A stretch of DNA of 64,000 nucleotides from Methylopila jiangsuensis (lineage in GTDB: Bacteria; Pseudomonadota; Alphaproteobacteria; Rhizobiales; Methylopilaceae), in assembly GCF_027922305.1 (NCBI RefSeq), contig NZ_BSFK01000010.1, forward strand, positions 186,001 through 250,000. The letters are read 5' to 3'. The notes beneath the pieces are model-generated. The model was not told where the DNA came from and did not search any database. It was given only the letters and a program-made list of their open reading frames with translations. A program made the translations under genes and the position numbers. This document shows, piece by piece, positions 3-20,814 of the stretch (positions within the stretch are counted from its first letter, which is position 1; each line of letters begins with the position of its first letter).

Positions 3-3000
3 TTCGTCCCCGGCGAGGGCGTTGGAGCGATCGTGCTACGCCGTCTCGACGACGCGCTCCGGGACGGGGACCGCATCCTCGGCGTCATTCGCGGCAGCGC
101 CGTGAACCACAGCGGCCGGACGAACGGCTACACCGTGCCGGGTTCGCGTTCGCAGGCGGCGCTCATCCGCAAGGCGCTGGACAGGGGAGGGCTGTCCCCA
201 CGGCAGATCGGCGCCGTCGAGGCCCACGGCACCGGGACCAAACTCGGCGATCCGATCGAGATCGGCGGTCTGGCGGAGGCGCTCGGAGGCGAGGCGGACG
301 CCCCGCCCTGCGCCGTCAGTTCGGTCAAGAGCAACATCGGCCATCTCGAGGCGGCGGCGGGCATCGCCAGCGTGCTCAAGGTGCTGCTGCAGCTTAAACA
401 CGGCCTGCTGGCGCCCTCGATACATGCGCGCGTTCCCAATCCCGATCTTCATCTCGACGGCACGCGGTTCTTCGTGCCGCAAAGCCCGGTCCCGTGGCCG
501 CTCGCATCCGACGGGCGGCGCAGGGCGGGCGTAAGCTCGTTCGGCGCCGGCGGGGCCTGCGCCCATGTGGTCATCGAAGACGCGCCGGCCGCGCCGGAGC
601 GCGAGCCGCATGAGGGGCCGGCGGTGTTTCCGCTTTCGGCCCAGACGGTCGGCCAACTGCTCGAACTTGCGCGCCGCCTGCGCTCACAGATCGCCTTCGC
701 CGGGGGGATGACCCGCGAGCGGTTGGGCGGCGTCGCCTACACGCTCCAATGCGGCCGCGCCGCGCTGCGCTTCCGTGTCGCGGCCGTGGGCTGGAACGCG
801 GAGGACCTCGCAGCGCAGCTCGACGCCTTCGCCGCCGACCCAGAGGGTCGGGCGGTCGACTCGCTTCCAGGCGCCGGCGCGCGCGACGTCGACGGCGCGA
901 AGCTTCGGGCGCTGGCGATCCATTGGGAAAAGGGCGGCGACGTGCGTTGGGGCGAGCTCTGGGCGCGCAAGCCGATCCCTGAGGATGCGCCGCATTATCC
1001 TTTCACGCTCGAACGTCATGCGCTGCCGCGGATCGAAGGCCCCGCGCCCCGCGGCCCGCGCCCCGCGGACATGCCGATTCCGCCGATCGAAATCGACGGG
1101 TCGGAATATTACGTCCGGGATCACCGCATCGCGGGCCGCGACACCGTCGCCGGCGCCGCCTATGTGGGATTTCTCGCCGCCGCGCTGGACCGGAGAGAGA
1201 AGGGGCGGCCGCTTCATCTGCGGGACGTGGTCTGGCGGGCGCCCTGCCGTCCGGAGGCCGGAACGACTCATCGCCTGCATGTCGCCGTGACCGACGTGGA
1301 GGCCGGCCTGCGGCTGGAGGTGTCTTCCGACGACGGGAGCGCGCCGCACTGCGTCGCGATGGCGGACGGCGCGCCTCGGTCGCCGGCGGGGCGCGCCGTC
1401 GACGCCCTCGAGGCCGTGCGCGCGCGCTGCGCCCGGCCCGCAAGCGCCGACGAGCTTTACGGATCGCTGCCGGCCATCGGCGTCGAGTTCGGCGAAAGCT
1501 TCCGCTGCGTGGCCCGCGCCTGGCGCGGCGCGGGCGAGGCTCTGGTTCAGGTGTCGGCGCCCGTCCGGACGCGCGCGGACGGAGCCGACGTTCCGTTTCA
1601 CGCCGGAGTGCTGGATGGGGTTTTCCAGGCGGCCTTCTTCGCGCTCCCCGAGGCGCCGAAGGGCCCGATGGTTCCCGTCCGGGCGCGCGCGATCCGCCTG
1701 CATGATCTGTCGGAACCGCATCTTTTCGCGCATGTGACGCGGGCCGGCGCCGAGGATGCGTCGGTCTTCGACTATCGCATCTTCGCGTCGGACGGGCGTC
1801 TGCTGGGCGAGGTCGAGGGCCTTGCGTTCCGTCGCCTTCCGGCGCCGCATCGTCTCGCCCCCGCGGAGCGGGCCGGGGACGAGCTCAGCCTGTTCCATCC
1901 CGTCTGGGTCGACGACCCTGCGGAGCGTTCGCCGGCGCGCATTCCGAAGTCGGTGCTTGCGCTGGATGAGGATGGAGCGCTGACCGACGCGCTTCGCGCC
2001 AGCGCGGATTACGGCGATCTGCGGCGGGTCCGCAGCGGCGAGGCGTTCGAGGTCGACGCGGATGGGGACGTCGCTCTCGATCTGGAGCGGGACGATCACC
2101 TCGACCTTCTCTGGCGTCTTCACCGCGCCGAAGGCGCGCCGCCCGACGCGGTGGTGGCGGCGTTGTGGGACGACGGCATGCGGGAGCCGCGGGGCGCTCC
2201 GTCGTCCTGGGAGCAGGGCGCCGGACTCGCTCCGTTGCGACGTCTGCTGCCGGTTCTCCGAGGGCTCGCCCGAAACGCCGGCGGCGCCCGGAAAACCCAG
2301 CTTGTTCTGGCGTGCCGATGCCCGCGAACCGCCGCGGCCGCGGCGGCCATGATGCGGTCGGTGCGTCTGGAGCATCCGGCGCTGGGCTGCACGGTGATCG
2401 AGGCCGAACGGGACGTCGCCGTGACGGCGATCGCCGAGGCGGCGGCGCGGGAGATCGGCGGCGGCGCCGCCGCCTTGCGCGTGATGCGTCTCGCCGGCCG
2501 CGCGACGTGGTCGCTGGCGTTCCTTCCGGACGGGGACGAACTGGCGTCGGCGCCGCAGGAACCGGATGTCGGCCCCGGAGACGTGGTGGCGATTACGGGC
2601 GGCGCGGGCGCCGTGGGCCGCCGCATCGCCGCCGCGTTGTCCCGACCGGGCGTTCGGATCGCCCTGCTCGGCCGGTCCGCCGCATCGGACGAGATCGACC
2701 GGACGCTTGCGGATCTGCGCTCCTCTGGCGCCGAATGCGGGTACTGGAGCTGTGACTGCGCCGATCGCGAGGCGCTGGAGCGCGCGCTCGACGACGTGCG
2801 GGAGCGCTTCGGGCCGATCACAGGCGTGTTCCACGCCGCCGGGGTTCTGCGGGACGCGCTGTTTGCGCGCCCGGACGGGGGCGCCTGGGACGCGGTCGTC
2901 CGGGCCAAGGTCGCGGGCGCCGACAATCTCGACGCGCTGACCCGGCGCGATCCGCTGCGCTGGTTCGTGGTCAGTTCGGCGCTGGCCGGCGTCTGCGGCA

Positions 3001-5579
3001 ATGTGGGCCAGAGTCTGTATGGCTTGGCAAACGGCTGGCTGGACGGCTTCGCCGCGGAGCGACGCGGTCGCGGCGCGCCCGGCCGCACGGTGTCCGTCGC
3101 CTGGCCGCTATGGCGCATGCCGGACGGCATGCAGGCGTCGAAAGGCTTCGTCGAGCGCTTGCGGAAGGAAGGTCTCGCTCCGCTTGAACCGGACGACGGA
3201 GCGCGCCTGTTCGCGGCGGCCACCTGGTCGGAGCGCGCGACGCTGGCGCCCGTTCCGGGCGATCCCGTGCGGGCCGCCGCGCTGCTCGGCGCCCGTCCCG
3301 CGTCGCCGCCGTCCGTCGCCCCGCGCCGTGCGGCGGCGCCTGCGGACATCCTGCCCTATCTCGGCGCAACCCTGGCCAGGGTCACGGGCGCCGATCCGGC
3401 GAAGATCGACCCGGACGCGCCGTTCGAGCGCTTCGGGCTGGATTCGTTGCTCATCGTCGAAATGAGCGAGGCGCTCAGGGAGCGCTTCCCGGCGATTTCG
3501 GTCGCGAGCCTGTTCGAGGCGCAAAGCCTGCGGGCCCTGGCCCGCCTGCTGGCGGATGAGGCGCCGGACGACGCGGCGTCGCTGGCCGAGGCCGCGGGGG
3601 AGGAGGACGCAGGCGACGCCCGCCCCCTCGCGCCGGCGGAGATCGCGGCGCCGATCGCCCCAGAGCCTGTTCCCGAGCACGCGGTCGCCATCGTGGGGCT
3701 GGCGGGGCGCTATCCGAGATCGTCGGATCTCTGGGACTTCTGGGATCATCTGCGCGAGGGCGCGGATCTGATCGAGGAGAGGCCGGCCCGGGCCCGATCC
3801 GATCGCGAGCCGGAGGGGGTCTACGCCCGCTGGGGCAGCTTCATCGACGACGTCGACGTGTTCGATCCGCTGTTTTTCGGCATCTCCCCACGCGACGCGG
3901 AGCGCATGGACCCGCAGGAGCGCATCTTCCTCCAGACCGCCTGGCGCGCGGTGGAGGACGCCGGCTACACGCCGGAGGCGCTTTCGGGCAAGGACGGCGG
4001 CGGCGATCTCCGCCGCGTCGCCGTCATCGCCGGCGTCATGTATGGGGAGTATCAGTTCTACGGCGCGGTCGGCGGGCAGGGCCTCGCGAACTCGTCCTAC
4101 GCGTCGATCGCGAACCGGGTGTCCTACTGCCTCGATTTCGACGGGCCCTCCTTCGCGGTCGACAGCATGTGCTCGTCGTCGCTGACCAGCATCCATCTGG
4201 CGTGCGACCTGCTGCGCGGGGGCGGCTGCGACGTGGCGCTGGCGGGCGGCGTGAACCTGTCGCTCCACTCCTACAAGTTCCGCACCCTATCGGAGCTGAA
4301 GTTCGCGGCGAGCGACGGGCGCTGCCGCAGCTTCGGGGAGGGCGGAGACGGCTACGTTCCCGGCGAAGGGTGCGGGGTGGTCGTGTTGCGGCGCCTTGAG
4401 GACGCCGTGGCGGCGGGCGACCACATCTATGCGGTGATCCGCGGCGGCGACATCGGACATGGCGCGCGCACGTCGGGCTACACGGTCCCAAATCCCGACG
4501 CGCAGGCCGAGGTCATCCGGCGGGCCTTCGCGCGCTCCGGCGTGGATCCCGCAAGGTTGTCCTATGTGGAGGCCCACGGCACGGGCACCAGCCTTGGCGA
4601 TCCGATCGAAATCCGGGGGCTCGCCAAAGCGGTGGGCGCACGCTTCCCTGCGGGCGCCGTCTGCGCCATCGGGTCGCTCAAGTCGAACATCGGTCATCTG
4701 GAGGCCGCGGCCGGAGTCGCCGCCCTGACCAAGGTGCTGCTGCAGCTGAAGCACCGCAAGATCGCCCCGTCGCTCCACAGCGCGAAGCTCAATCCCTTCA
4801 TCGACTTCGCGCGCACGCCGTTCCGCGTGCAGCGGGAGCTTGGCGAGTGGGACAGCTTCGGATCGCCCAGGGTGGCCGCGATCAGCTCCTTCGGCGCCGG
4901 GGGCTCCAACGCCCATCTGGTGATCGAGGAATGGGTCGAGCCGGAGCCTGTTCCGGACGCCCCGGAGCCCGTCTGCCTGCGCTTCTCCGCGCCGAGCGAC
5001 AGACAGCTCAGGGAGATGTCGGCGTCGTTCATGAAGCACATCGAGCGCGAACGGGAGACGCCGGGCGGGCCTCGTTCGCTGAGGGACATCGCGGCGACGC
5101 TGCGGCGCGGCCGCCGGCGGTTCGAACGCCGCCTCGCCGTGGTCGCTTCGGGCTACGACGAACTCCGCCGGAGGCTGGCGGCTTATCTCGCCGCGGCGGA
5201 GGATGGCGCGGCCGCACGCCTCGCCCGCGAGGGAGTTTACGTGTCAGGCCTCGCGCAGGGCGAGGCTCCCCCGTCGCGCGACGAAGCGCGCCGGCAGGCT
5301 TTCGCCTGGGTGACGGGCGGCGACGATGACGCCGTCGTCGAAGCCGGTCGCTGGCGCCGCGCGCCGCTGCCGGGCCACGCGTTCCTGCGGCGTCGCTTCT
5401 GGATCGGCGCCGCGGACGGCGCGCCGTCCGAGGGCGCGCCGTCCGCGGACCGCGAGTTGGCCGCGTCGCCGGCCCGGCCCGATCGAGAGGCGGTCACGCC
5501 GAGCGACATCCTGGCGAAGGTCCGGGCCGGAGAACTCTCCGCCGAAGACGCCAGGGCCATGCTCCTGGCGATCCGCTAG
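3..5579 (+). CDS. Trans-AT type I polyketide synthase (KS'-DH-KR-ACP-KS), 5' end outside window
   Basis: This is the C-terminal part of a modular PKS; the open frame runs in from the left edge (first full codon at 3). Numbering from the GTG at 33: the C-terminal half of a KS (EAHGTGT and KSNIGH histidines, about 60-110); a post-KS linker with no AT; a DH (about 345-640) with His near 364 in HxxxGxxxxA, where the usual Pro is Ala, and the second motif LDGVFQ near 528; a KR (about 740-1060) with GGAGAVG and Ser/Tyr/Asn catalytic residues (SSALAG, YGLAN) and HAAGVLRD, whose Asp hints at a B-type reductase; an ACP with GLDSL near 1135; and a complete KS from 1218 with Cys in DSMCSSS and both histidines. 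The protein ends in a short helix-like tail (DILAKVRAGELSAEDARAM), possibly a docking element. Lack of any AT makes this a trans-AT system. The last KS has no partner domains, so its module continues on later proteins. Confidence 0.95.
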   Translation, partial: FVPGEGVGAIVLRRLDDALRDGDRILGVIRGSAVNHSGRTNGYTVPGSRSQAALIRKALDRGGLSPRQIGAVEAHGTGTKLGDPIEIGGLAEALGGEADAPPCAVSSVKSNIGHLEAAAGIASVLKVLLQLKHGLLAPSIHARVPNPDLHLDGTRFFVPQSPVPWPLASDGRRRAGVSSFGAGGACAHVVIEDAPAAPEREPHEGPAVFPLSAQTVGQLLELARRLRSQIAFAGGMTRERLGGVAYTLQCGRAALRFRVAAVGWNAEDLAAQLDAFAADPEGRAVDSLPGAGARDVDGAKLRALAIHWEKGGDVRWGELWARKPIPEDAPHYPFTLERHALPRIEGPAPRGPRPADMPIPPIEIDGSEYYVRDHRIAGRDTVAGAAYVGFLAAALDRREKGRPLHLRDVVWRAPCRPEAGTTHRLHVAVTDVEAGLRLEVSSDDGSAPHCVAMADGAPRSPAGRAVDALEAVRARCARPASADELYGSLPAIGVEFGESFRCVARAWRGAGEALVQVSAPVRTRADGADVPFHAGVLDGVFQAAFFALPEAPKGPMVPVRARAIRLHDLSEPHLFAHVTRAGAEDASVFDYRIFASDGRLLGEVEGLAFRRLPAPHRLAPAERAGDELSLFHPVWVDDPAERSPARIPKSVLALDEDGALTDALRASADYGDLRRVRSGEAFEVDADGDVALDLERDDHLDLLWRLHRAEGAPPDAVVAALWDDGMREPRGAPSSWEQGAGLAPLRRLLPVLRGLARNAGGARKTQLVLACRCPRTAAAAAAMMRSVRLEHPALGCTVIEAERDVAVTAIAEAAAREIGGGAAALRVMRLAGRATWSLAFLPDGDELASAPQEPDVGPGDVVAITGGAGAVGRRIAAALSRPGVRIALLGRSAASDEIDRTLADLRSSGAECGYWSCDCADREALERALDDVRERFGPITGVFHAAGVLRDALFARPDGGAWDAVVRAKVAGADNLDALTRRDPLRWFVVSSALAGVCGNVGQSLYGLANGWLDGFAAERRGRGAPGRTVSVAWPLWRMPDGMQASKGFVERLRKEGLAPLEPDDGARLFAAATWSERATLAPVPGDPVRAAALLGARPASPPSVAPRRAAAPADILPYLGATLARVTGADPAKIDPDAPFERFGLDSLLIVEMSEALRERFPAISVASLFEAQSLRALARLLADEAPDDAASLAEAAGEEDAGDARPLAPAEIAAPIAPEPVPEHAVAIVGLAGRYPRSSDLWDFWDHLREGADLIEERPARARSDREPEGVYARWGSFIDDVDVFDPLFFGISPRDAERMDPQERIFLQTAWRAVEDAGYTPEALSGKDGGGDLRRVAVIAGVMYGEYQFYGAVGGQGLANSSYASIANRVSYCLDFDGPSFAVDSMCSSSLTSIHLACDLLRGGGCDVALAGGVNLSLHSYKFRTLSELKFAASDGRCRSFGEGGDGYVPGEGCGVVVLRRLEDAVAAGDHIYAVIRGGDIGHGARTSGYTVPNPDAQAEVIRRAFARSGVDPARLSYVEAHGTGTSLGDPIEIRGLAKAVGARFPAGAVCAIGSLKSNIGHLEAAAGVAALTKVLLQLKHRKIAPSLHSAKLNPFIDFARTPFRVQRELGEWDSFGSPRVAAISSFGAGGSNAHLVIEEWVEPEPVPDAPEPVCLRFSAPSDRQLREMSASFMKHIERERETPGGPRSLRDIAATLRRGRRRFERRLAVVASGYDELRRRLAAYLAAAEDGAAARLAREGVYVSGLAQGEAPPSRDEARRQAFAWVTGGDDDAVVEAGRWRRAPLPGHAFLRRRFWIGAADGAPSEGAPSADRELAASPARPDREAVTPSDILAKVRAGELSAEDARAMLLAIR

Positions 5580-5600
5580 AGCTTCGGGAGATCACACGGG

Positions 5601-6893
5601 ATGAGCGCAGGGCGGATCGGAATCATCGGCGCGGGGGCGAGCGGGATCGGGGTCGCGCGGGCGCTGCGAAAGGACGGGCTCGATTTCGAGGTCATCGAGG
5701 CCACGAAGGATGTGGGCGGGAACTGGCAGCCTGACGGTCCCGCGTCCAAGATGTACCGCTCCGCGCATCTCATAAGCTCAAAGAAAAACACCCAGTTCTC
5801 CGATCATCCGATGCCGGATGACTATCCGCATTACCCGCACAACTCCCTGATGTTCAAATACCTCAACGACGTGGTCGACGCCGCGGACGTCCGCAAGGCG
5901 ATCCGCTTCGGCGCCGGCGTCCTGCACGCCGCGCCCGAGGACGGCGGGTGGCGCGTCACCCTGAGCGACGGCGAGGAGGCGTTTTACGACGCTCTTGTCG
6001 TCTGCGCCGGTTTGCTGCGCAAGCCGTTCGCGCCGGTCTATCCGGGGCGCTTCGACGGCGAGACGATGCACGCCGCCGACTATCGCTCCAGCGCCGCGCT
6101 GGAGGGCAGGCGCGTGCTCGTGGTCGGGGGCGGCAACTCCGGCTGCGACATCGCCGTGGATGCGGCTCATGTGGCCGCGAAGGTGTTTCATTCCACCCGC
6201 CGCGGCTATCATTACATGCCGAAGTTCATCGCCGGAAAGCCGACCCAGGAATGGCTGATGGACATCTCGCCCCAGTTTCGGGGCGCCGATGAATACTGGT
6301 CGCATGTGGCGGACGTCTTCAAGCTCGCCGGGTTCGACGGTCGAGATTTCGGTCTTCCGGAGCCTGATCACAGCATTCAGGCCGCTCATCCGATCATGAA
6401 TTCCCAAATCCTTTATCACATCGGGCATGGCGCAATCGCGCCGGCGCCGGACGTCGCCCGTCTGGACGGCGGCGTCGTCGAGTTCGTCGACGGGCGTCGG
6501 GAGCGGATTGACGTGATCGTGTGGGCGACCGGCTACGGCGTCGATCTGCCGTTCCTGTCCGGCGCCGGCTTTGATGCGAAGGCGGATCTTGGCGGCGCCT
6601 TCCTGAAAGTGCTTTCAGGTCGATACGACAATCTTATTTACGTTGGATACTTGAATACGCCATCAGGTATTGGAAATATAGCAAATATAGTTGGAAAATT
6701 TGTATCAAAATATCTGATTTCAAAAAATGAAAAAAGTCCCGGCTGGATCCGGCTCAAATCGATCCAGAGCAGCGGCGCCCAAATCGACCTCGGGCAGGAT
6801 CGGTTCATGAAGACAAGTCGGCACTCTCATGAAGTCGACCTGTGGAAGTTCATAAAAACAATAAACTTCATTTCGTCTGAATTGTCGAAATAA
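5601..6893 (+). CDS. Flavin-dependent monooxygenase (class B, FMO type), stand-alone
   Basis: A 430-residue FAD- and NADPH-dependent monooxygenase. Visible motifs: the N-terminal FAD Rossmann GAGASG (residues 9-14), the FMO fingerprint FxGxxxHxxxY as FDGETMHAADY (about 150-160), a second Rossmann motif GGGNSG for NADPH, and the late WATGY motif (about 309). FMOs of this class carry out Baeyer-Villiger or heteroatom oxidation, and in trans-AT PKSs some insert oxygen into the growing chain. It lies between a PKS ending in a KS and a protein starting with an ACP, so it probably acts on an ACP-bound intermediate in trans. The ATG at 5601 follows a GGGAG about 14 bases upstream and the spacing to the PKS stop is 21 bp. 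The last 250 bases are conspicuously AT-rich against the rest of the gene. The oxidation type cannot be read from sequence. Confidence 0.9.
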   Translation: MSAGRIGIIGAGASGIGVARALRKDGLDFEVIEATKDVGGNWQPDGPASKMYRSAHLISSKKNTQFSDHPMPDDYPHYPHNSLMFKYLNDVVDAADVRKAIRFGAGVLHAAPEDGGWRVTLSDGEEAFYDALVVCAGLLRKPFAPVYPGRFDGETMHAADYRSSAALEGRRVLVVGGGNSGCDIAVDAAHVAAKVFHSTRRGYHYMPKFIAGKPTQEWLMDISPQFRGADEYWSHVADVFKLAGFDGRDFGLPEPDHSIQAAHPIMNSQILYHIGHGAIAPAPDVARLDGGVVEFVDGRRERIDVIVWATGYGVDLPFLSGAGFDAKADLGGAFLKVLSGRYDNLIYVGYLNTPSGIGNIANIVGKFVSKYLISKNEKSPGWIRLKSIQSSGAQIDLGQDRFMKTSRHSHEVDLWKFIKTINFISSELSK

Positions 6894-6917
6894 CGGTTGA
6901 TGTGGAGAGACGCGCCC

Positions 6918-9900
6918 ATGGTGAAGATGGATCCGATCACGCCGGAGCGTAATGTCAATTCCGGGGCTGACGCATTGAGCGTAGATGAGGCGCTTGCGTT
7001 GCTGGAGCGTCTTGACGACGTCGAGGGGCGCTCCTCCGCTGAGGCCGGCCTCAAGGCGCGGGTGTCTCAGGATCTCGGCCAGCTTCTCGTCTCGGTGCTG
7101 AAGCTGCAGCTCCAGGATCTGTCGCCGGACAAGTCCTGGATGGACTACGGGCTGGATTCGATAGCCTCGACGGAGCTCGCGACGGCGTTCACGGAAAAAT
7201 TCAAGATCTCTTTGCCTCCGACCATTTTCTTTGAATTCCAGAATCTCGCGACTTTCACGGAATATCTTGCGACGAGCTACGGTCCCGAACTTGAGAACAT
7301 CTATCGCCATCAGCCGTTGAGACTGGTCGCCGCCGCGACGCCGGGAACGGCGTCCGCGGACGCGCCCGAGCCCGCGCCTGCGGCGCCGGACCGCGCGGCG
7401 TCCATCGAAGATCTGTGGGCGGCCGCGCCGGCGTCGCCCGAGGCGTCCTTCGCCGTGTCCGCCCCGATGGAGCCCGCGGCGGACGAGATCGCGAGCCGGG
7501 AGCCCTTTGTCGCGGCGGCGACGGTGCATGACTTCCCCCGTCCGGGAGGCGGCCGCCTTGAGTGCGCGGTCTACGGAGAGGGCGAGCCGGTCCTGCTGCT
7601 CGGCGGTCTGGTCATGCATTTCAGCGTCATGTGGCGGCTGCAGCTGGAGGCTTGGGGCGCTGACCGCCGGCTCATCATGATGCATATGCCGGGCTGCGGC
7701 GGGGCCACGCTTTATGACGGCGTCACCCTGGACAGCCTTGCGGACGACGCCGCCGCCCTGCTGGACGCCCTCGGCGTCGCGGGCCCGGTTCCCGTTCTGG
7801 GCTATTCCTTCGGCGGCGTGCTGGCGCAGGCCTTCGCCCTTCGGCATCGCGCGCGCTGCTCGCGGCTGGCGATCTGCGTCAGCGCCTCCTCCTCCGAAGG
7901 CGCAGACGATTTTTCGACCCTCATGCGGGAGCTTCAGAAAAGTCCCCGTTTCATGGAGCTGAACCGGGGCTGGCCGATGTCGGCCCTGCCGACCTATGGC
8001 CGGGTGGCGACGGGATTCGATTTCCGGGCCCGGCTGAGCGCGCTGGATCTGCCGGCGCTGGTCGTGTCCGCGGATCGCGACCGCTACATGACGTCGGCTC
8101 ATGCCGCGGAAACCGCCGCCCGCTTACCCAACGCGCGGACGCGGGCGTTTCCAGACGCAGGCCATCTGGTCGGCTTCACCCATCATCGCGCGTTCAACGA
8201 GGCGGTTCTGGAGTTCTGGCGGGAGGAGACGGTCCCGCACGACGGGGCGTCCGGGACCGCCGTCTACGCCCCCGCCTCGGACGACACGCTGCAGGCTCTC
8301 GAGGACTACGTCCGCGCCGGAGATCAGGGCCACGCCATTCTGCTTTCGCCCGACGTGGCGCAGGCGGCGCTGTTGCTCGACATCGGCCTGAACGCGGGCA
8401 AGCCGGAGCCGCAGCGCTACCGGTCCTTCTTCCTGACGTCGCAGGAGGAGGCGCTGGACGCCGCGATCCGCTTCGCGCGCCATCTCGCCCGCAACAGGTC
8501 CGGCGGCGCGGACGGCCGAACGGTGATGATCGACCCGAGCGGCGTGTGGGAGCGCCGCTTCAACCCGGTCGGGGGACCGGCGGCGGAGGCGCTGACCCCC
8601 GGCGTCGAGATCGTGGCCTCGCTGGCGGCCGCGCGGTCCGCGCTTGCGGAAGGCGCCGGCGCGGCCGCGCTGGTCTTCGTCGCGACGCAGGAGGCGCAGC
8701 CGGACGATCTCGCCCGCTTCGTCGGTCTCGCCCGGAGCTGCTCCGCCGCCGCAATTCTCGTCGATCGCGACGGGCCGGGCGTCGCGCCGTCCGACTGGCT
8801 GTCGTTCCGCTCCGCGACCGCCTGTGACATCGTCGTGCTGGGCGAATCCGTCAGCGGCGCCCAGGCGCCGTCCGGCGCGATGGCGACGCGGGATGCGATC
8901 GGCAATCCCTGGGCCATGACGCCGAACGAAGGCTATGTGCGGCATCCGATGGCCAATCTGGGCTTCGCGTCGCGGGCCATCCTGGACCATCTGCGGCGCA
9001 CGATCGCGGTGACCGACGATCAGGCCCGCAACCTGCGCCGGATCCGAAGGGATCCGGAGGCCAACCACGCGGCCCACCTGTCCCACGGCAATGGCGGCTA
9101 CGCCCGCGTCGCCCGGATGCATGGCTTCGACGCGCGGTTCTATGAGGGGCGGGGGAGCCGGTCGCGCGTGATCCCGGCCGAGGGCGGTCCGTCGCGGGAA
9201 ATCGTGGACTGCCTGTCGAACGTGGGCTCCTGTCCGCGGGGGCTCAATCCGCTCGACGTGATCGACGCGGTCGCGCGCGGTCATGACCGCGATCACGATT
9301 ACTGGGGCGACCTGCGCGCCGCCCTGTGCGAGCTCACGGGCTTCGACGACGCCCTGCCGGCCGCGAGCCATGTCGCCGCGCTGGACGCCGGCGTCGCTCT
9401 CGCGCTCGCCGCCTCCCGCGGGCGGACCAAGATCGTGGCCTTCAGCGGCGGCGCGGCGTTCTCGCTTGCGAGCGCGGCGGTCGCTCACGATCCCCTGTTC
9501 GACAGTTTCCGCGCGCCGTTCCAGCCGGTTTATCCGCACGTCGCCTTCATCGATCCCGGCGCGGCGGATGCGGGAGCGAAGCTGGAGGCCGAGCTCGCGT
9601 CCGGCGACGTGGCGCTGGTCTGGCTCGAAACCCTCCAGGTCGAGGGCAACGCCACCCGACCGCTGCCCGCCGATCTGGTCGAAACGGTCGAGCGCCTGCG
9701 GGGCGCGGGAGGCTATCTCGTCGGCGTCGACGAGACCCAGACCGCGTTCTGGACCGGTCGGCCTCTGCACAGCGAAACCCTGTCGCCGCGCCCGGACATC
9801 GTCGTGCTCGGCACGGCGGTGACGGACGGCTTGCTGCCGATGGGCGTGGTCCTGGGCCGCTCCGAGGTCTTCGCCCGGGCCGAGACGGCAGGCGGCGGCT

Positions 9901-11828
9901 GGCTCGCCGAGCGCCGGCGTCGGGCCTGCCAGCTGTCGTCCCATCTCGCGGCGCACGCGCTGCGCGACATCCTGGCCCGCGATCTGATGCGGGAGGCGCG
10001 CGAACAGGGCGCCTATTTCAAAGCGGCCCTCGAAGATCTCCGCGCCCGGCGACCGATCATCCGCGAGATCCGGGGCGAAGGGCTGCTTCTGACCATCGAG
10101 CTCGATCTTTCCGGTTTCCCCGCCTTCGTCCAGCAGAGCTTCGGCTATCTGCTTTGGGGCAGCCTGATGCGGGATCCCGAAGGCGGCGTCGCCGTCGTCG
10201 TCTGCCCGCTGCACAACGCCTGCCTTCGGTTCGCGCCGCCGCTCACGATCAGCAGGACCGAGATCGACCTCATCATCGGCGCGCTGGACCGCGCTCTGGC
10301 CGCCGGACCGGCGGGCGTGCTGAGCGGCTGCGCCAGCTACTGCGAGCAGCGAGGCGACATGAAGACCGCAAGCTTCCTCAACAGGCTGAGCGCGGAGAGC
10401 GCGGCGAAAGGCGAGGCGTCCGGACCGGCGGCGGGGACGAAAGGGCGCTCCGCGGGCAGGCGGGATTTTCGCGTCTGCATCATCGGCGCGGGCGTCGCGG
10501 GCATCTCCATGGCCAAAGCGCTCAAGGACAAGAACATTCGGTTCGACTGCTATGAAAAGCGCGAACATCTGGGCGGAATCTGGGCCTACGACGCTGACCG
10601 CAAGCATACGTCCACCTGGGCGAACCTGAACATGAACACCCCGAAAGGGCATTACCAGTTCGCAGACATGCCCATGCCGCAGGATTATCCGGATTATCCG
10701 TCCCGCCAGCAGGTGCAGGACTACCTGGAGGCCTACGCCGACCGGAATGATCTAAGGGAGCACATTCATCTTGGCTGCGGCGTCCGCCGCGCCGAGCGGC
10801 GGACGGATGGGGTTTGGGAGGTGACGCTGGACGACGGCGACACGCGGGAGTTCGACGCGCTCGCCGTCGCCAACGGGCATCACAACCAGCCGGCGGTTCC
10901 CGAGTTCGACGTCAGCCGCTTCACCGGAACGGTGTCGCATTCGCAGCATTACCGCAGCCGGCACGAATACCGGGATCAGCGGGTGATGGTGGTTGGAATC
11001 GGCAACAGCGGGTCGCAGATCGCGGTGGACGTCAGTCATGACGCGGCCATGACGTATCTCGCCGTGCGGAGAGGCGTCTACGTGCTTCCCCACTACCTGT
11101 TCGGGATGCGGATCGACAAGGCGCTCGGCCCCCTCAATTCATGGTGGGTGAAGAAGCTTCTTCCCTATCCGCTTCACGAAATACTTCTGACGACCACCTA
11201 CAACCTCTTTATCGCCAGACACCGCAGTCTGGGCATGCCACGCCCCGACCACTGGATGATGTCCTGCCTGCCGACGATGTCGGAGAATCTTCCCAATCGC
11301 ATCGGCGACGGAAAGCTCAAGATCGTCACGGGCGTCGACCGGGTCGAGGGCAGGACGGTCCACCTCGCCGGCGGAGACCGGATCGAAGTGGACGCGATCA
11401 TCTACTCCACCGGCTACAGAACGAGCTTTCCCTTCCTGGATGACGGCGTCATCGACGCCTCGGACAACACTATTCAGCTCTACAAGAGGATTTTTCATCC
11501 CGGCATAGACAATATTGTCTTCATAGGACTTTTCCAGGCCATCACCTGGGGGTTCCTTGATATCATGGAGAGGCAAAGCCAGCTCGCGGCGCAGTATTTT
11601 TCCGGCGAATACGCGCTTCCGAGCGCGGAGCGGCAGATGGAGGACATCGCCGCCGAGCGCAAGCGGATCGAACGCGAGTATGTTCCGACCCTGCGCAATC
11701 AATACTACCTGCATGGCCCGACCTACATGCGCGACCTGAGCCTGGAGATGCGCCGCGGCCGCAGGCGCACGCAGGGCGCGGCGGAGCGCGCGCCGCTGTC
11801 CTTCCTCAGTTTCGCCGGGAGCCGCTGA
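6918..11828 (+). CDS. ACP / alpha-beta hydrolase / tandem pseudo-aminotransferase / FMO fusion protein
   Basis: A 1636-residue protein with an unusual domain order. ACP: GLDSI with carrier Ser81. Alpha/beta hydrolase (about 205-445): nucleophile Ser297 in GYSFGG, an SADRD acid region and His416 in DAGH. First aminotransferase-like fold (about 450-700), short and divergent. Second class III aminotransferase-like fold (about 710-1140): PLP-ring Asp938 in VDETQT is kept. At the position of the Schiff-base lysine (D-I-V-x-L-A-K in active enzymes) the first fold has Glu643 and the second Thr966, so neither should form an internal aldimine. C-terminal FMO (about 1180-1600): GAGVAG, FTGTVSHSQHY, GIGNSG and STGY, all intact. 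The ATG at 6918 is chosen because GGAGAG sits 8 bases upstream; TTG 6897 and ATG 6900 are in-frame alternatives. The ACP can complete the module begun by the KS ending upstream, and the hydrolase may act as an in-line esterase or thioesterase. The role of the dead folds is unknown. Confidence 0.9.
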   Translation: MVKMDPITPERNVNSGADALSVDEALALLERLDDVEGRSSAEAGLKARVSQDLGQLLVSVLKLQLQDLSPDKSWMDYGLDSIASTELATAFTEKFKISLPPTIFFEFQNLATFTEYLATSYGPELENIYRHQPLRLVAAATPGTASADAPEPAPAAPDRAASIEDLWAAAPASPEASFAVSAPMEPAADEIASREPFVAAATVHDFPRPGGGRLECAVYGEGEPVLLLGGLVMHFSVMWRLQLEAWGADRRLIMMHMPGCGGATLYDGVTLDSLADDAAALLDALGVAGPVPVLGYSFGGVLAQAFALRHRARCSRLAICVSASSSEGADDFSTLMRELQKSPRFMELNRGWPMSALPTYGRVATGFDFRARLSALDLPALVVSADRDRYMTSAHAAETAARLPNARTRAFPDAGHLVGFTHHRAFNEAVLEFWREETVPHDGASGTAVYAPASDDTLQALEDYVRAGDQGHAILLSPDVAQAALLLDIGLNAGKPEPQRYRSFFLTSQEEALDAAIRFARHLARNRSGGADGRTVMIDPSGVWERRFNPVGGPAAEALTPGVEIVASLAAARSALAEGAGAAALVFVATQEAQPDDLARFVGLARSCSAAAILVDRDGPGVAPSDWLSFRSATACDIVVLGESVSGAQAPSGAMATRDAIGNPWAMTPNEGYVRHPMANLGFASRAILDHLRRTIAVTDDQARNLRRIRRDPEANHAAHLSHGNGGYARVARMHGFDARFYEGRGSRSRVIPAEGGPSREIVDCLSNVGSCPRGLNPLDVIDAVARGHDRDHDYWGDLRAALCELTGFDDALPAASHVAALDAGVALALAASRGRTKIVAFSGGAAFSLASAAVAHDPLFDSFRAPFQPVYPHVAFIDPGAADAGAKLEAELASGDVALVWLETLQVEGNATRPLPADLVETVERLRGAGGYLVGVDETQTAFWTGRPLHSETLSPRPDIVVLGTAVTDGLLPMGVVLGRSEVFARAETAGGGWLAERRRRACQLSSHLAAHALRDILARDLMREAREQGAYFKAALEDLRARRPIIREIRGEGLLLTIELDLSGFPAFVQQSFGYLLWGSLMRDPEGGVAVVVCPLHNACLRFAPPLTISRTEIDLIIGALDRALAAGPAGVLSGCASYCEQRGDMKTASFLNRLSAESAAKGEASGPAAGTKGRSAGRRDFRVCIIGAGVAGISMAKALKDKNIRFDCYEKREHLGGIWAYDADRKHTSTWANLNMNTPKGHYQFADMPMPQDYPDYPSRQQVQDYLEAYADRNDLREHIHLGCGVRRAERRTDGVWEVTLDDGDTREFDALAVANGHHNQPAVPEFDVSRFTGTVSHSQHYRSRHEYRDQRVMVVGIGNSGSQIAVDVSHDAAMTYLAVRRGVYVLPHYLFGMRIDKALGPLNSWWVKKLLPYPLHEILLTTTYNLFIARHRSLGMPRPDHWMMSCLPTMSENLPNRIGDGKLKIVTGVDRVEGRTVHLAGGDRIEVDAIIYSTGYRTSFPFLDDGVIDASDNTIQLYKRIFHPGIDNIVFIGLFQAITWGFLDIMERQSQLAAQYFSGEYALPSAERQMEDIAAERKRIEREYVPTLRNQYYLHGPTYMRDLSLEMRRGRRRTQGAAERAPLSFLSFAGSR

Positions 11829-11859
11829 TGTCGGCCGCGCTCGCCAAGGGGGGACCGGC

Positions 11860-14793
11860 ATGACCGCCGCCCGCGCATTCGCTCGGGGCGGGCTCGCCCC
11901 CATGGCCATCGTCGGCATGCATGGCCGGTTTCCGGGCGCGCCCGATCTCGCGGCTTTCTGGGACAACCTGGAGGCCGGGCGCGACGTGATCGGCCGTGTT
12001 CCTTCCGACCGCTGGGATTGGCGCGCCGTACACGGAACGCGATCCGGGGACGGCGAGACGTCCTACTCCAGCTGGGGAGGCTTCGCCGATCATGTGGACT
12101 GTTTCGACGGGGGCTTTTTCGGCCTGCTGCCGAAGGAGGTCCAGAGCATGGATCCCCAGCAGCGGCTTTTTCTTCAGACGGCGCACAACGCGCTGGAGGA
12201 CGCCGGGATCGGCCCGCGGAGCCTCGCCGGACGCAAGGTGGGCGTGTTCGTCGGCGTCGGCAACGCGGATTACCCGGCGCTCATGCGGGAGCACGGCGCG
12301 GAGATCGACGCCTACCGCGGCACGGGCATGGCGCTGACAGCCATTGCAAATCGCATCTCCTACCTGTTCGACCTCCGTGGACCGAGCAGCGTCGTCGACA
12401 CCGCCTGTTCGGGCTCGCTCGTGGCGCTTCACCGCGCCGTGACCTCGCTGCGCGAAGGCGAATGCGAGCTCGCGATCGTGGGGGGCGTCAATCTTCTGCT
12501 CGGGCCGGAGCTCTACGTGGCCTTCTCCAAGGCCGAAATGCTCAGCCCGACGGGGCGTTGCCGCGCTTTCGACGCCGCCGCCGACGGCTATGTGCGCGGC
12601 GAGGGGGTCGCGGCGGTGGTCGTGCGCCCGCTGGAGGCGGCTCTCGACGCCGGCGACTACGTCTACGCCGTGGTGGAGGCCGTAGCCGAGAACCATGGCG
12701 GCCGGGCGCACGGCTTCACCGCGCCCAATCCCTCCGCGCAGGCGGATGTCATCGCCGATGCCTGGCGCAAGGCGGGACGGCCCTTGAGCGAGGCCGCCTT
12801 CGTCGAGACCCATGGCACCGGAACGCCCCTCGGCGATCCGATCGAGATCGAAGGTCTGAAGCTCGCTCTGGCGCGATCGTCTCCGTCGCGTCGGGAAACG
12901 ATTTCTCTGGGCAGCCTGAAGAGCCAGATCGGCCATCTGGAGGCCGCCGCGGGGATCGCCTCGCTGATCAAGGCGGCGCTGTCGCTGCAGCGAGGGCGGC
13001 TGCCGGCCAACATGCATCATGACCGGCTCAATCCGCGGATCGATCTTGACGGCGCTCCCTTCCGCGTCGCGAGCCGCGAGACCGCGCTGAACAGGCTCGG
13101 CGATGAGCCGCTCGCGGCGGGCGTCAGCTCCTTCGGCTTCGGCGGCGTGAACGCCCACGCGGTTCTGAGGGAGTTCCGCGCCCCGCGTGGAGCAGACGGA
13201 CAGAAGGAGCGCGACCGCCGCCCGTTTCTGATCGCGCTCTCGGGAAAGGACGCCGCCGGCCTCAGGGCCCGAGCGGCCCAGCTGGTCGCGACGCTTCGCG
13301 CCGTCCCCGGAGCCTCCGAGCGCGAGCGCATCGCGCGCCTGCTGGGCGAGGCGCTTGCGCTGGACGTCTCGGGGGACACGCCGCTCGCCGCGGCCGGCGT
13401 GACGCCCGGGCGCCTGTCCGCGGCGCTGGAGCAGGCGGGGCGGAGCATCGGCGCGCCGGTGGATCTGGAGACCGTTCGCGATTGCGTCACGTTCGACGAC
13501 CTCTGCGCCGCCATCGCTGCGCGCGGGCCGGTCCCCGGCGCGGAGACGGAGGATGGCGAGACGGCGCGCCTGCTTTGCGCGGCCGCTCTGCCCGCCGCGG
13601 ATGTCGCCGCGCTCGATCTCGCGCGCCTGTCGCGGGCGCTCCTGTTCGGACGTGACGCCATGAGCGAGCGTCTCGCGCTGGTGGCGGGCGACACGGCCGA
13701 ACTTGTGGAGGCGCTGTCCTGCTTTCTCGCGGCGCCGGCGTCCGACGGCCCGTGGGTCCGCTCCTCCGTCCGCGGTCGGGGCGAGACGGTCGCGCGGCCT
13801 GAGGCGCTGGCGTCGGAGGCGAGCGCGGACGATCTCTGGCGCTGGGCCCGGTACTGGGCGGCGGTCAGGACGCCGGACATCGCCTGGCCGGAGCTGTATC
13901 CCGATCTGCCGCTCCCGCCGAAGACGCCTCTGCCGGCCTACCCGTTCGCCCTTCGGCGCGTCTGGTACCGCGCGCGAGACCGGAGCGGCGCAGGGCGCGA
14001 GGCGCCGCCATCGTCCCCGGCCGTCCTTCGCGAACGGACGCCGGAACAGGGCTCCATCCACGCGGCCTGGCGGGAGTGCTGGGCCGCCGCCGTGCGGCCG
14101 CTGCCCTCGTCTCTGACCGCCGCGCCGACCCTGATCGATCGGCTGGCCGCGCGCGGAGGCGTCGTCGCGCTGTCCGAGGTCCTGCTGGCGCGCCCGGCCG
14201 ACTTCAGCGGCGAAGCGATCGTGCGCGAGGCGGCCACGGAGCGGGTGGCGCAATGCGTCGCTCCGGGATCTGCGCCCTGGGCGGCCCTCGAGGCGAGGAT
14301 GGCGGACGGCCCCGCCCTGGCGATGGAGACGCCCCGGTCGGATCCGATCGGTTCGATCTCCGGCGCCGACTTCTACGGGTTGTGCTCCGCGGCGGGCGTT
14401 GCGCCGGGGCAGCGCCATCGCCCGGTCCGACAGGTTCGCATAGGGCGCGACACGCTCGAGTTCGAGCTTGATCTGCGACCTGCCCGCGACGCGTCCTTCT
14501 GGACGCAGCTGACCGTTACGGCGACGCTCGGCGCCGCATGGCTGCTGGATCCGGCGCTGTCGGCGGACGCGCTCCCGCTGCCCTGGCGGGTCCGCTCCCT
14601 GCGCTTCGATTCCGCGGCCTCGGAGCCGGTCGCGCGGATGTCTTTCGTCCGAAGCGGACGCGACGCCGTCGCCTTCGCCGCGCTCGGCGCGTCTGGCGCT
14701 CAGGTCCTGACGGTGGGCGAATGGGCGACGCGCCGTTTCGCCCTGCCGCGGCGGCCTGTGGCCGGGGCGGAGATCCACAGGATCGCGTCGTGA
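11860..14793 (+). CDS. Ketosynthase protein with degenerate ACP- and DH-like segments
   Basis: A 977-residue trans-AT type PKS component. The N-terminal KS (about 8-430) is intact: Cys in DTACSGS, His in ETHGTGT and His in KSQIGH (normally KSNIGH), plus the SSFGFGGVNAH end motif. About residues 475-545 read like an ACP in helix pattern, but where GxDSL should be there is AAGVTPGRL, so no phosphopantetheine serine is present. A typical trans-AT post-KS linker follows, ending in PAYPFALRRVWY (about 690). The last 200 residues look like a double-hotdog DH, but the LDxxxQ motif is replaced by TLGAAW and no HxxxGxxxxP is seen, so I call it degenerate. The ATG at 11860 has a GGGGGGA Shine-Dalgarno. 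It may accept and pass on the chain oxidised by the preceding proteins; this is inference. Confidence 0.88.
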   Translation: MTAARAFARGGLAPMAIVGMHGRFPGAPDLAAFWDNLEAGRDVIGRVPSDRWDWRAVHGTRSGDGETSYSSWGGFADHVDCFDGGFFGLLPKEVQSMDPQQRLFLQTAHNALEDAGIGPRSLAGRKVGVFVGVGNADYPALMREHGAEIDAYRGTGMALTAIANRISYLFDLRGPSSVVDTACSGSLVALHRAVTSLREGECELAIVGGVNLLLGPELYVAFSKAEMLSPTGRCRAFDAAADGYVRGEGVAAVVVRPLEAALDAGDYVYAVVEAVAENHGGRAHGFTAPNPSAQADVIADAWRKAGRPLSEAAFVETHGTGTPLGDPIEIEGLKLALARSSPSRRETISLGSLKSQIGHLEAAAGIASLIKAALSLQRGRLPANMHHDRLNPRIDLDGAPFRVASRETALNRLGDEPLAAGVSSFGFGGVNAHAVLREFRAPRGADGQKERDRRPFLIALSGKDAAGLRARAAQLVATLRAVPGASERERIARLLGEALALDVSGDTPLAAAGVTPGRLSAALEQAGRSIGAPVDLETVRDCVTFDDLCAAIAARGPVPGAETEDGETARLLCAAALPAADVAALDLARLSRALLFGRDAMSERLALVAGDTAELVEALSCFLAAPASDGPWVRSSVRGRGETVARPEALASEASADDLWRWARYWAAVRTPDIAWPELYPDLPLPPKTPLPAYPFALRRVWYRARDRSGAGREAPPSSPAVLRERTPEQGSIHAAWRECWAAAVRPLPSSLTAAPTLIDRLAARGGVVALSEVLLARPADFSGEAIVREAATERVAQCVAPGSAPWAALEARMADGPALAMETPRSDPIGSISGADFYGLCSAAGVAPGQRHRPVRQVRIGRDTLEFELDLRPARDASFWTQLTVTATLGAAWLLDPALSADALPLPWRVRSLRFDSAASEPVARMSFVRSGRDAVAFAALGASGAQVLTVGEWATRRFALPRRPVAGAEIHRIAS

Positions 14794-16688
14794 GGGCGGC
14801 GCTCTTCTCCGGGCAGGGCGCGCAGCGGCGCGGCATGGGCGGGGAGCTGTTCGCGCGCTTTCCCGATCAGGTGAGGATCGCCGACAGGACGCTCGGTTAC
14901 AGCGTGGCCGAACTGTGCCTGGAAGACCCCCGCGACGAGCTTTCGCGCACGGCCTTCACCCAGCCGGCGATCTATGTGGTTTCCGTGCTCGCCTATCTGC
15001 AGGACGCGGACGTCCACGGCGCGCCCGCCTTTGTGGCCGGACACAGCGTCGGCGAATACGCCGCGCTGACGGCCGCGGGCGTGTTCGATTTCGAGACCGG
15101 GCTGCGCCTTGTCCAGCGCCGGGCGGCGCTCATGGCCCGCGCCGACGGGGGCGGCCTCACGGCGGTCGTCGGCGCTTCTCCGGCTGAGGTCGAGGAGATG
15201 CTGCGTCTCCCCGAACTCGCCGAACTGGAGGCCGCGAATTTCAACACGCCGACCCAGACGGTGGTCGGCGGGCCTCGCGCGGCGCTCGAACGCCTGGAGC
15301 GACGCTGCGCCGAGATGGGCCGGCGCGCCGTGCGGCTCAATGTGAGCGGCGCCTTTCACACCGGCGCCATGCGGACGGCCGCCGCTGCGTTCGCCGACGT
15401 CGTCCGCTTGGTCCCCTTCGCGCCGCCTCGGATCCCGGTGGCGCTCAACCTGACGGGCGAACTTCACGCCGGCGAAGACCTGCGCGACGTGCTGTCGAGG
15501 CATATCGCGAGCCCCGTGCGCTGGAGCGGCTGCGTCGGGGCTCTGCTGCGGGCGGGGGCGAGCGTGTTCGTCGAGTTTCCCGGCGCGGGCGTTCTCTCCC
15601 GGATGACGGAGGAGATCCGGAGGACGGCGCCCCCGGCCGCGCGGCGGGCGGAAGGCCCGCTCGGGCGTCCTCTGGTCGCCGGTTCGCTCGGGCGCGGGAT
15701 GGCCGGACCGGAGATGGTGGGCGCCCTGGCGCGGGCGGACGTCACGGCGTTTCTCGACGGCGAGGGCGTCCCTGACGACCGTCTGGAAGCGGAGCTGCAG
15801 GAGCTTCTGCGCGACCCGGCGCTTGCGCCGCGCGTCGGGGCCTCGCTCGCTCTGACGCTGCGGCGCGACGATGAGCGGCGGCGCGCCGATCTGTTCATCC
15901 GCGTGGGGGTGCAGAACCTCGAGCTTCGGGGATACGAGCGGCCGTCGGATGCGGTCAGGCGCTATCGGGCTTCGGCCTCCGACGGACGCGCCCGGCGGCT
16001 TTTCGTGCGGACGGACCGCCCCGAGGCGGTCGACGGCTTCCTCGACGCGGAGGCGGAGGATGGGCGGCCTTTCGTGGCGGCGATCTGCGTCGAAGCCGGT
16101 CTCTGGCGCGCGCAGGAGGGGAATCCGGAGGCCGCTCTCCGTCGAGCCGTGGAGCGACGCGCGGCGGCGCGGCGGCTTGGCCGTCCGGAGGGCGGCGTGC
16201 TCATCGGAGCGGCCGCGCGGATCGATGACCCGCGGGCGGCGGAGGAGGCCTTCGCCGCGGGTTGCGACTTCGTCGCCGCCGGCGCCGTGATGCTGCTGGC
16301 GGACGAGGCGCGCCTTGACGGCGACGTCCGGGCGGCGGCGCGCGATGCGGGCGCGGGAAGGGTCGCGCTGTGTCCCGACGGCTGGCTGCCGGGGCTCGCC
16401 ACACAGACCCTCGCGTGGAGTCCGGACGAGACGTCCGTCGCCGAGCTGCGCCGCCTGCAGGCGCTTTACCTTCGCGCGCCGACCGAACGGCGCGGCGACC
16501 GGGCGACGCTGCGCGAGGCCATGACGGACCTCGCCGGCCGGTTGATCCCGTGCGATCCGGCGTTCGACGCCGCACGCGCCTGGATCGCGGCGGAGGCGAC
16601 GAAGGGGCCGCTCTCCGCCGCGCGCATCGCCCACATGCTGCTGACGCCGTTCCTCGCGGGGCGGCCCAACGAGGGAGGACGACCGTGA
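14790..16688 (+). CDS. Discrete (trans) malonyl-acyltransferase fused to a PfaD-like enoylreductase remnant
   Basis: A 632-residue protein. The first 300 residues are an acyltransferase of FabD type: FSGQGAQ at the N terminus, nucleophile Ser in GHSVGEYAA (about 86-94), catalytic His in SGAFHTGAM (about 190), a pattern usual for malonyl-specific trans-ATs. It should load malonyl units on the AT-less modules. From about residue 350 the sequence follows PfaD/FabK flavin enoylreductases in pieces: an RADLFIRVGVQNLELRGY strand-helix, RLFVRTDRPEAVDGFL, and the barrel end GGVLIGAAARIDDPRAAEEAF followed by CDFVAAGAVM. The family's ADSGGHTDNRP segment is not recognisable and the N-terminal half of the barrel is short, so reductase activity is doubtful. 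The start is GTG at 14790, overlapping the previous stop as GTGA, because AT homology begins right there. AT-ER fusions are common in trans-AT clusters; a damaged ER part is less so. Confidence 0.9.
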   Translation: MRAALFSGQGAQRRGMGGELFARFPDQVRIADRTLGYSVAELCLEDPRDELSRTAFTQPAIYVVSVLAYLQDADVHGAPAFVAGHSVGEYAALTAAGVFDFETGLRLVQRRAALMARADGGGLTAVVGASPAEVEEMLRLPELAELEAANFNTPTQTVVGGPRAALERLERRCAEMGRRAVRLNVSGAFHTGAMRTAAAAFADVVRLVPFAPPRIPVALNLTGELHAGEDLRDVLSRHIASPVRWSGCVGALLRAGASVFVEFPGAGVLSRMTEEIRRTAPPAARRAEGPLGRPLVAGSLGRGMAGPEMVGALARADVTAFLDGEGVPDDRLEAELQELLRDPALAPRVGASLALTLRRDDERRRADLFIRVGVQNLELRGYERPSDAVRRYRASASDGRARRLFVRTDRPEAVDGFLDAEAEDGRPFVAAICVEAGLWRAQEGNPEAALRRAVERRAAARRLGRPEGGVLIGAAARIDDPRAAEEAFAAGCDFVAAGAVMLLADEARLDGDVRAAARDAGAGRVALCPDGWLPGLATQTLAWSPDETSVAELRRLQALYLRAPTERRGDRATLREAMTDLAGRLIPCDPAFDAARAWIAAEATKGPLSAARIAHMLLTPFLAGRPNEGGRP

Positions 16689-16951: not shown

Positions 16952-16996
16952 TGGTTTTGTAGAAGTTGAATTGCGAATAAGAGCGGGGAGAATAAG

Positions 16997-18784: not shown

Positions 18785-19581
18785 CGGCGGGCGGGAGGCC
18801 TCCGGACGCCGCATGGACCCGGCTGTGCGACGAGGTTCCGGGCCGCCCGCGCGTCGCCTGTTTCCACGCTGCGGGAGGGAGCGCCCAGAGCTTCCTCCCC
18901 TGGCGCGGCGCCTTCGAGGGGCGTTACGGCCTCGTCGCCGCGGAGTTGCCCGGTCGGGGGCGGCGCTACGGCGAGCCCTACGCGGTTTCCGTCGCGGCGG
19001 TCGCGGCGGATCTGGCGGCGGGCCTGGATCGCTTCGGGGCCGGCCCCTGGATCTTCGTCGGACACAGCCTTGGCGCTCTGATCGCCTATGAGGCCGCGGC
19101 TGCGCTCAGGGACCGGGGCGCTCCGGCTCCTCTTGGGCTGATCGTCGTCGCGCGCCGGGCGCCGCAGGCGCGCGCCCAGGGGGACGGGCTTCCGGACGGA
19201 TCGCTCCCGGCGGTGCGCGCCTATCTGAAGGGGCTGGGCGGCACGCCGGACGCGATCCTGGCGGACGACGCCTACATGCGCATGGTCTCCGATACGCTGC
19301 AGGCCGATTTCGATCTGCTGCGCGGCTACGTTCACCGGCCGAGGCCCCCGCTGGAGACGCCCGTCCACGCGATCGGCGCTCTGGAGGACGACGCCGTCGG
19401 CTTCGAGCCGATGCTGGGCTGGCGGCTGCTCGGAGCGCCCGGCGGAACCCTGACCATGATCGAGGGCGGACATTTCAGCGCCATGCGCGATCCGTCGGCG
19501 GTCGTCCGTCGGATCGATCGCATCCGGCTCGATCGTCCTCCGGCTGACAGCGAAGAGCAAAGGCTGCCGCGCTGCGCGTGA
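18781..19581 (+). CDS. Type II thioesterase
   Basis: A 266-residue alpha/beta hydrolase of the type II (editing) thioesterase family linked to PKS and NRPS clusters. It has FHAAGGSAQSF near residues 25-35, nucleophile Ser in GHSLG (about 95-99), an Asp near DDAVGF, and the catalytic His in GGHFS near 230. Such enzymes hydrolyse stalled or wrong acyl groups from carrier proteins; some release the product. The GTG start at 18781 overlaps the FAAL stop (GTGA). The preceding open frame offers no homology upstream of this codon. No integrated C-terminal TE is visible on the PKS proteins in this window, so a direct release role is possible. Confidence 0.9.
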   Translation: MTAGGRPPDAAWTRLCDEVPGRPRVACFHAAGGSAQSFLPWRGAFEGRYGLVAAELPGRGRRYGEPYAVSVAAVAADLAAGLDRFGAGPWIFVGHSLGALIAYEAAAALRDRGAPAPLGLIVVARRAPQARAQGDGLPDGSLPAVRAYLKGLGGTPDAILADDAYMRMVSDTLQADFDLLRGYVHRPRPPLETPVHAIGALEDDAVGFEPMLGWRLLGAPGGTLTMIEGGHFSAMRDPSAVVRRIDRIRLDRPPADSEEQRLPRCA

Positions 19582-19636
19582 GCCCGGCGGCGAATGACGA
19601 AAGATGAATAAAAACAAAGCGAAAGGAGAGGAACAG

Positions 19637-20743: not shown

Positions 20744-20814
20744 GCCGGAGAGCGAGGCCGTGCCGCGAACGGCCCCATCGCCATGCCGGAAACGCGTGAT
20801 TGAAAGGCGCGCCC

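Follow-up and report, generated by a model that had tools for sequence, protein, structure and literature searches.

An epoxide and a cyclopropanol are reportedly formed by carbon–carbon shortening in the system described by Ueoka in 2018. M. extorquens AM1 is a producer of toblerols, which contain a cyclopropanol according to a paper title. A commentary from 2021 speaks of 'poorly understood biosynthetic principles', and how toblerol-type PKSs make the cyclopropanol appears unsettled in the portion of the literature consulted. A split order of KS, flavin-dependent monooxygenase (FMO) and acyl carrier protein (ACP) is described in PMC8262917 as an oxygen-inserting trans-AT PKS module, in which the FMO acts as a Baeyer–Villiger monooxygenase and converts beta-keto thioesters into malonyl esters. 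In the sesbanimide genes sbnO, sbnP and sbnQ treated in the same paper, an FMO gene lies between a KS-ending gene and an ACP-holding gene. Among class III aminotransferases, the prodigiosin enzyme PigE carries its class III domain at the C-terminus; its N-terminal part is described as resembling acyl-ACP reductases (PMC8341465), and the purified enzyme gives a PLP band.

In this study, a multidomain gene was analysed within a 64,000-nucleotide stretch of Methylopila jiangsuensis DNA (the window; unless another record is named, coordinates refer to it and features given with coordinates lie on the + strand). The reading frame 6897–11828 is unbroken: a TTG at 6897 opens it, an ATG stands at 6918 and the stop codon ends at 11828. 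The gene (6918..11828) encodes 1636 aa counted from 6918, in the order ACP, alpha/beta hydrolase, AT1 (half a fold), AT2 and FMO. The first-pass annotation had proposed an intact frame with an ACP, a hydrolase, two aminotransferase folds and an FMO; the frame and AT2 proved to be complete, but AT1 amounts to half a fold. The contig and a locus on the AM1 megaplasmid are colinear from about −3788 to 22581 of the window, and the contig shows the gene content and order of that locus. The shared order comprises an opposite-strand gene, a small gene, an SDR-like gene (assigned by eye), a PKS, an FMO, the 6918 gene, a KS gene and an acyltransferase, followed by an AMP-ligase, a thioesterase, a DUF3047 protein and a Rieske–P450; the AM1 neighbours, in a different organism, are colinear from the SDR-like gene to the Rieske–P450. 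The 22-kb stretches from Methylosinus sp. Ce-a6 and Methylobacterium sp. R2-1 are colinear over their extent. The AM1 orthologue (NC_012811.1, L007 16573–21597) has the same domain order, with E and T at the two lysine positions as here. The Methylopila protein adds a new member to a type of cluster that AM1 already carries, and the AM1 megaplasmid locus is presumably the toblerol (tob, cyclopropanol) cluster. The earlier view that no enzyme of the same domain order exists elsewhere was overturned by this full-length orthologue, 63% identical and located in a colinear trans-AT PKS locus.

The split order of KS, FMO and ACP is found in the window. The upstream PKS (3..5579; its frame starts at window position −1446 in the contig) has a KS at its end, and a stand-alone FMO gene (5601..6893, 430 aa; Pfam FMO-like 168.4 bits; AM1 orthologue 66%) lies between this KS and the ACP of the 6918 gene, likewise to the arrangement in sbnO, sbnP and sbnQ. 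Compared with the sesbanimide split module, a second FMO, a hydrolase and an AT-like pair are here fused to the ACP. The next PKS gene (KS; 11860..14793) was assigned by Pfam and is colinear with AM1, and it is followed by a stand-alone acyltransferase, the trans-AT (14790..16688; Pfam Acyl_transf_1 119.5 bits; start set by homology with locus L008).

Judged by their motifs, whose names we assign from general knowledge, the ACP, hydrolase and FMO parts of the protein look intact. The ACP domain (residues 53–117, 7074..7268; Pfam PP-binding 53.7 bits) carries a DS motif with Ser81 in all five proteins, namely that of the window and four orthologues. The putative hydrolase triad of Ser297 (G-Y-S-F-G), Asp388 and His416 is invariant in 5/5 (residues 206–435, 7533..8222; Pfam Abhydrolase_1 67.3 bits, best stretch 224–328), and the relatives of this domain in the PDB are esterases and enol-lactonases. 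The FMO domain (residues 1185–1608, 10470..11741; Pfam FMO-like 233.3 bits) keeps the motif F-x-G-x3-H-x3-Y (1335–1345) and both nucleotide-binding glycine motifs in 4/4 full-length proteins. Its closest PDB structure is 8z12 (E 8.7e-71), and 8odw, a 'polyketide synthase modules-related protein', follows with E 6.4e-34; a literature search for the function of 8z12/8z13 found nothing. Type I Baeyer–Villiger enzymes have Trp at the end of the corresponding motif. Because both FMOs, the domain and the separate gene, are nearer to 8z12 than to the PKS-named 8odw, and because their motif ends in Tyr rather than Trp, the Baeyer–Villiger step proposed below is drawn from gene order.

AT2 (residues 706–1137, 9033..10328) has the complete large- and small-domain fold of class III aminotransferases (PF00202). 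Pfam Aminotran_3 matches residues 795–1127 with 78.8 bits against a cut-off of 30.5, the single Aminotran_3 stretch in the whole protein, and hhalign against a profile of 25 class III enzymes gave Prob 99.8 over 392 columns. The profile was built from 5 enzymes of the same genome and the 20 top matches that the PigE model found among 398 genomes, so that the reference sample is uneven. Among the NCBIfam aminotransferase models, putrescine aminotransferase and PigE ranked top, both far below their cut-offs. An AlphaFold model from a 3-row alignment reached pLDDT 42 and was set aside; with 39 class III enzymes added to the alignment, pLDDT was 82.3 and pTM 0.86, but these rows pull AT2 toward the class III fold, so that the model is not independent support for it, and the AT1 part of the model rests on 3 alignment rows. 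In structural superposition, where the rows span model residues 276–703 and represent AT2 rather than AT1, acetylornithine aminotransferase 1vef_A (VIA-align Z 26.3, rmsd 2.5, 367 aligned) tied with PigE 4ppm_A (Z 26.3, rmsd 3.5, 419 residues). YgjG putrescine aminotransferase (4uox, Z 25.6) and PigE (4ppm) are the class III enzymes closest to AT2, and PigE is its best PDB sequence and Foldseek match.

AT1 (residues 450–703, 8265..9026) was assigned to the same fold from hhalign, PDB matches and the model, and consists of the large domain only, lacking the N-terminal segment and the C-terminal small domain. Against the 25-enzyme profile, hhalign gave Prob 95 and E 2.8e-8, with an alignment that runs in order through 209 columns and sets Glu643 against the lysine, and 11 of the 12 weak matches of an AT1 profile to PDB sequences (E 0.012–0.97) are class III enzymes. 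No Pfam model reports residues ~450–703 at E 0.001, no NCBIfam family is matched by residues 441–740 alone, and AT1 and AT2 are weakly alike (hhalign Prob 7.6), which falls short of establishing the two independent losses that the first-pass annotation assumed. A PigE-like architecture, suggested by the NCBIfam PigE match to residues 670–1064, was rejected for AT1: the N-terminal part of PigE is reductase-like, whereas AT1 matches class III large domains, and hhalign of AT1 against two PigE N-terminal parts gave Prob 0.2.

When aligned to class III aminotransferases, both folds match the family and neither has a lysine at the Schiff-base position. The first-pass annotation had read Glu643 (8844..8846) and Thr966 (9813..9815) at this position, in each case after D-I-V-V-L-G, and had read Asp938 (9729..9731), which we take to be the Asp for the pyridine nitrogen, as retained in the second fold; the alignments bear out each of these readings. 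The Schiff-base lysine of PF00202 is replaced by Thr in AT2 of all five proteins, and the AT1 position reads E,G,E,E,E. A lysine stands here in 25/25 reference class III enzymes and in 38/39 enzymes from viral contigs; the latter set began as 61 loci, one with an internal stop, and was reduced to 46 after removal of exact copies, to 41 by an 88% filter and to 39 after L096 and L098 were excluded by hand. One viral-contig class III aminotransferase (L101 1860–3134) carries Asp at the aligned lysine position and Lys adjacent to it. Within residues 440–1086 of the five proteins, K495 and K838 are the only invariant lysines and neither occupies the Schiff-base position; the idea that a lysine from another site keeps the transaminase active was rejected on this ground. 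Transamination by this protein is very unlikely on the sequence evidence.

Other positions of the former cofactor site have changed together with the lysine; their roles are assigned here from general knowledge of the family. AT2 shares with the class III enzymes the fold, Asp938, Gln941 and Glu904 (each retained in 5/5) and the RGxG and PPL motifs, of which the RGxG Arg is kept in 5/5 and PPL in 4/4, as the cut row of the fourth orthologue, G671, ends before PPL. Unlike those enzymes, AT2 is fused into a PKS protein with the half domain AT1 ahead of it, and it lacks the Schiff-base Lys, the phosphate-cup Gly, the ring-loop His and probably the partner Thr. The phosphate-cup Gly (25/25 references) is H,H,Y,Y,Q by alignment; of the S-G-x-E motif, Ser is retained, Gly is replaced and Glu has become Ala, and SGxEA is retained in AT1 of AM1 and of Methylobacterium sp. 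R2-1. The ring-loop His (25/25 references) is Ala in 5/5 by alignment, and the Arg of GxGRTG (25/25 references) is a gap in 5/5. The partner-subunit Thr (24/25 references) aligns to R,R,R,R,E, in a loop that aligns poorly and differs between alignments, so that its loss is less certain than that of the lysine. Of 81 family-conserved positions (at least 22/25 references), AT2 keeps 25 in 5/5 and replaces 34 in all five proteins, with gapped columns excluded from the count and the G671 row ending at residue 1086, after which a frameshift occurs. Half of the replaced positions (17/34) carry one new residue that is invariant in the five proteins, among them Thr966, His951, Asp970, Asn911 and His1009, which makes the AT2 pocket look rebuilt.

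Conservation along the protein is uneven. AT2 has 152/381 positions invariant in the five proteins and keeps 53% identity even to G671, and the 17/34 at replaced sites is not clearly higher than this overall proportion (no formal test), so that the replaced sites appear about as constrained as the rest of AT2 and not relaxed. The AT1 core has 47/206 invariant positions. Within the AT region, conservation is among the highest in the loops that surround Glu904 and Asp938 and in AT1 residues 663–682 (8904..8963); this AT1 loop, NPWAMTPNEGYVRHPMANLG, is the most conserved 20-mer in residues 1–1086, with 16/20 positions invariant. Values of dN/dS (Nei–Gojobori, three pairs) are 0.08–0.31 for AT2, 0.33–0.36 for AT1, 0.04–0.12 for the FMO, 0.03–0.10 for the ACP and 0.16 for the hydrolase, and the linker gives 0.35–0.37 in two computable pairs; with dS close to 1 or higher in two pairs, these values are rough. 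Purifying selection acts on AT2, and AT1, with values close to those of the linker, is weakly held except at its end (663–682). In class III dimers, the loop matching AT1 663–682 reaches the cofactor of the other subunit. From its conservation and this partner-reaching position, we infer that AT1 takes the place of a partner subunit for AT2. The absence of the lysine from the four relatives as well indicates that the aminotransferase-shaped parts have probably been given a different task, which may lie in the biosynthesis of cyclopropanol compounds. The reused, non-transaminating role proposed in the first-pass annotation is thus upheld by a conserved loss, by purifying selection on AT2 and by the replacement of family motifs with residues that are themselves conserved.

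We propose, with a probability of roughly 0.55, that the protein serves a toblerol-type trans-AT PKS as its oxidising, chain-editing subunit, and that its PLP-free AT1–AT2 pseudo-dimer holds the chain. The growing chain would sit on the ACP of the 6918 protein, and one of the two FMOs would insert oxygen next to the beta-keto group in a Baeyer–Villiger reaction. The hydrolase would then cleave the resulting ester to give a shortened chain and an alcohol, and the presence of FMO and hydrolase on a single ACP-bearing protein fits chain shortening to an alcohol. With a cyclopropyl group as the migrating carbon, the alcohol would be a cyclopropanol, as judged on chemical grounds. In the AT1–AT2 pseudo-dimer, AT1 would supply the partner loop, and the former cofactor pocket of AT2 (Thr966, Asp938, Gln941, Glu904, Asn911, Trp945 and His951, all invariant) would bind and orient the acyl chain or the beta-keto group in the absence of PLP, so that the AT pair would present the chain to FMO and hydrolase. 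The substrate and the order of steps in this scheme are conjectural. A conserved, cofactor-stripped aminotransferase fold in the toblerol-type line is a testable candidate for an unexplained step, and AM1, which has the orthologue, is a laboratory strain. If its pocket binds the chain, the fold would be a new kind of substrate-holding domain in PKSs. An 'aminotransferase' annotation would mispredict an amine in the product.

The alternative that survives best, although it is unlikely for the pair as a whole, is that AT1–AT2 is a decayed structural spacer that only separates ACP, hydrolase and FMO. AT1 suits this reading better than AT2 does: it comprises half a fold, its dN/dS lies near that of the linker, its lysine position varies (E or G), and this ratio together with the 47/206 invariant core positions means that part of the AT pair may indeed be a spacer. 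AT2, with its invariance, its 53% identity to G671 and 17 family positions uniformly replaced, does not fit this explanation, and the conservation of its motif loops argues against its being just a spacer; scaffold, binding and new chemistry would look alike at the level of the alignments.

Quite unlikely, in our estimate, is PLP-free catalysis, in which the AT2 pocket would carry out a carbanion or enolate attack that closes a three-membered ring before Baeyer–Villiger oxidation and hydrolysis. The motif loops of AT2 rank with the best-conserved parts of the AT region, the replacements Thr966, His951, Asp970, Asn911 and His1009 are invariant, and toblerols have a cyclopropanol while the cluster genes scanned match no family named as cyclopropane-forming. 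However, a precedent for such catalysis in this fold was not found, and the Rieske–P450, the SDR-like gene or an FMO could make the ring instead. Its fullest form, a decidedly speculative one, would make AT1–AT2 a new cofactor-free enzyme, in which the AT1 partner loop and the AT2 pocket (Thr966, Asp938, His951, Trp945 and Asp970) close the cyclopropane by base chemistry, and FMO and hydrolase then release the cyclopropanol by chain shortening. A catalytic pocket would make the protein a PLP-fold enzyme that gave up PLP.

A PLP or PMP enzyme that holds its cofactor with no lysine at all, or with one supplied from another site, is improbable. In another fold class there are PMP enzymes that work without a lysine and offer a parallel, and Asp938, Gln941 and Glu904 are kept in 5/5; against this, the phosphate-cup Gly has become His, Tyr or Gln, the ring-loop His and probably the partner Thr are lost, and K495 and K838 are the sole invariant lysines. 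An artefact, in the form of a sequencing error at the two codons or a chance motif match, has next to no probability and is refuted for AT2, as Thr recurs in five genomes at 43–70% identity, AT1 reads E,G,E,E,E in the same genomes, and the fold is backed by both profile and model.

Searches for the protein in other genomes gave full-length orthologues from M. extorquens AM1 (62–63% identical), Methylosinus sp. Ce-a6 (70%) and Methylobacterium sp. R2-1 (62%). The fourth orthologue, G671, comes from a genome of the same taxonomic order and is 43% identical over residues 20–1086 and 54% over 1087–1619, with the two parts in different frames; in its orthologous cluster (contig C3, L039 and L040), large genes carry several apparent frameshifts, which may stem from assembly error. 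The genome draws, which overlap, returned only the own genome among 398 genomes of the phylum at 1e-40, among 376 of the class at 1e-50 and among 18 of the family at 1e-5 with AT1 as query, and two matches, the own genome and G671, among 397 of the order at 1e-60. One of 72,556 plasmid records matched (the AM1 megaplasmid), and exact short peptide patterns found two loci in genome contigs, although such patterns can miss relatives like G671. The literature searched, of which the 2018 study of Ueoka formed no part, contained no description of a PKS that bears a class III pair devoid of the lysine.

Several minor features of the cluster were also recorded. In the upstream PKS, the DH region at ~1120–1150 lacks the full HxxxGxxxxP motif and reads HRIAGRDTVA in a pattern search, which likewise found no HxxxGxxxx(P/A) pattern in the corresponding DH region of AM1 or Ce-a6; the incomplete motif agrees with descriptions of oxygen-inserting modules. 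The remainder of the colinear cluster spans 16997..22623 and comprises the AMP-ligase (16997–18784), the thioesterase (18685–19581), the DUF3047 protein (19604–20743), 62% identical to its AM1 counterpart, and the Rieske–P450 fusion (20800–22623). In the last of these, a Rieske [2Fe-2S] domain lies N-terminal to a cytochrome P450 in a single 607-aa protein, and the AM1 counterpart (L007 30932–32755) is 69% identical.
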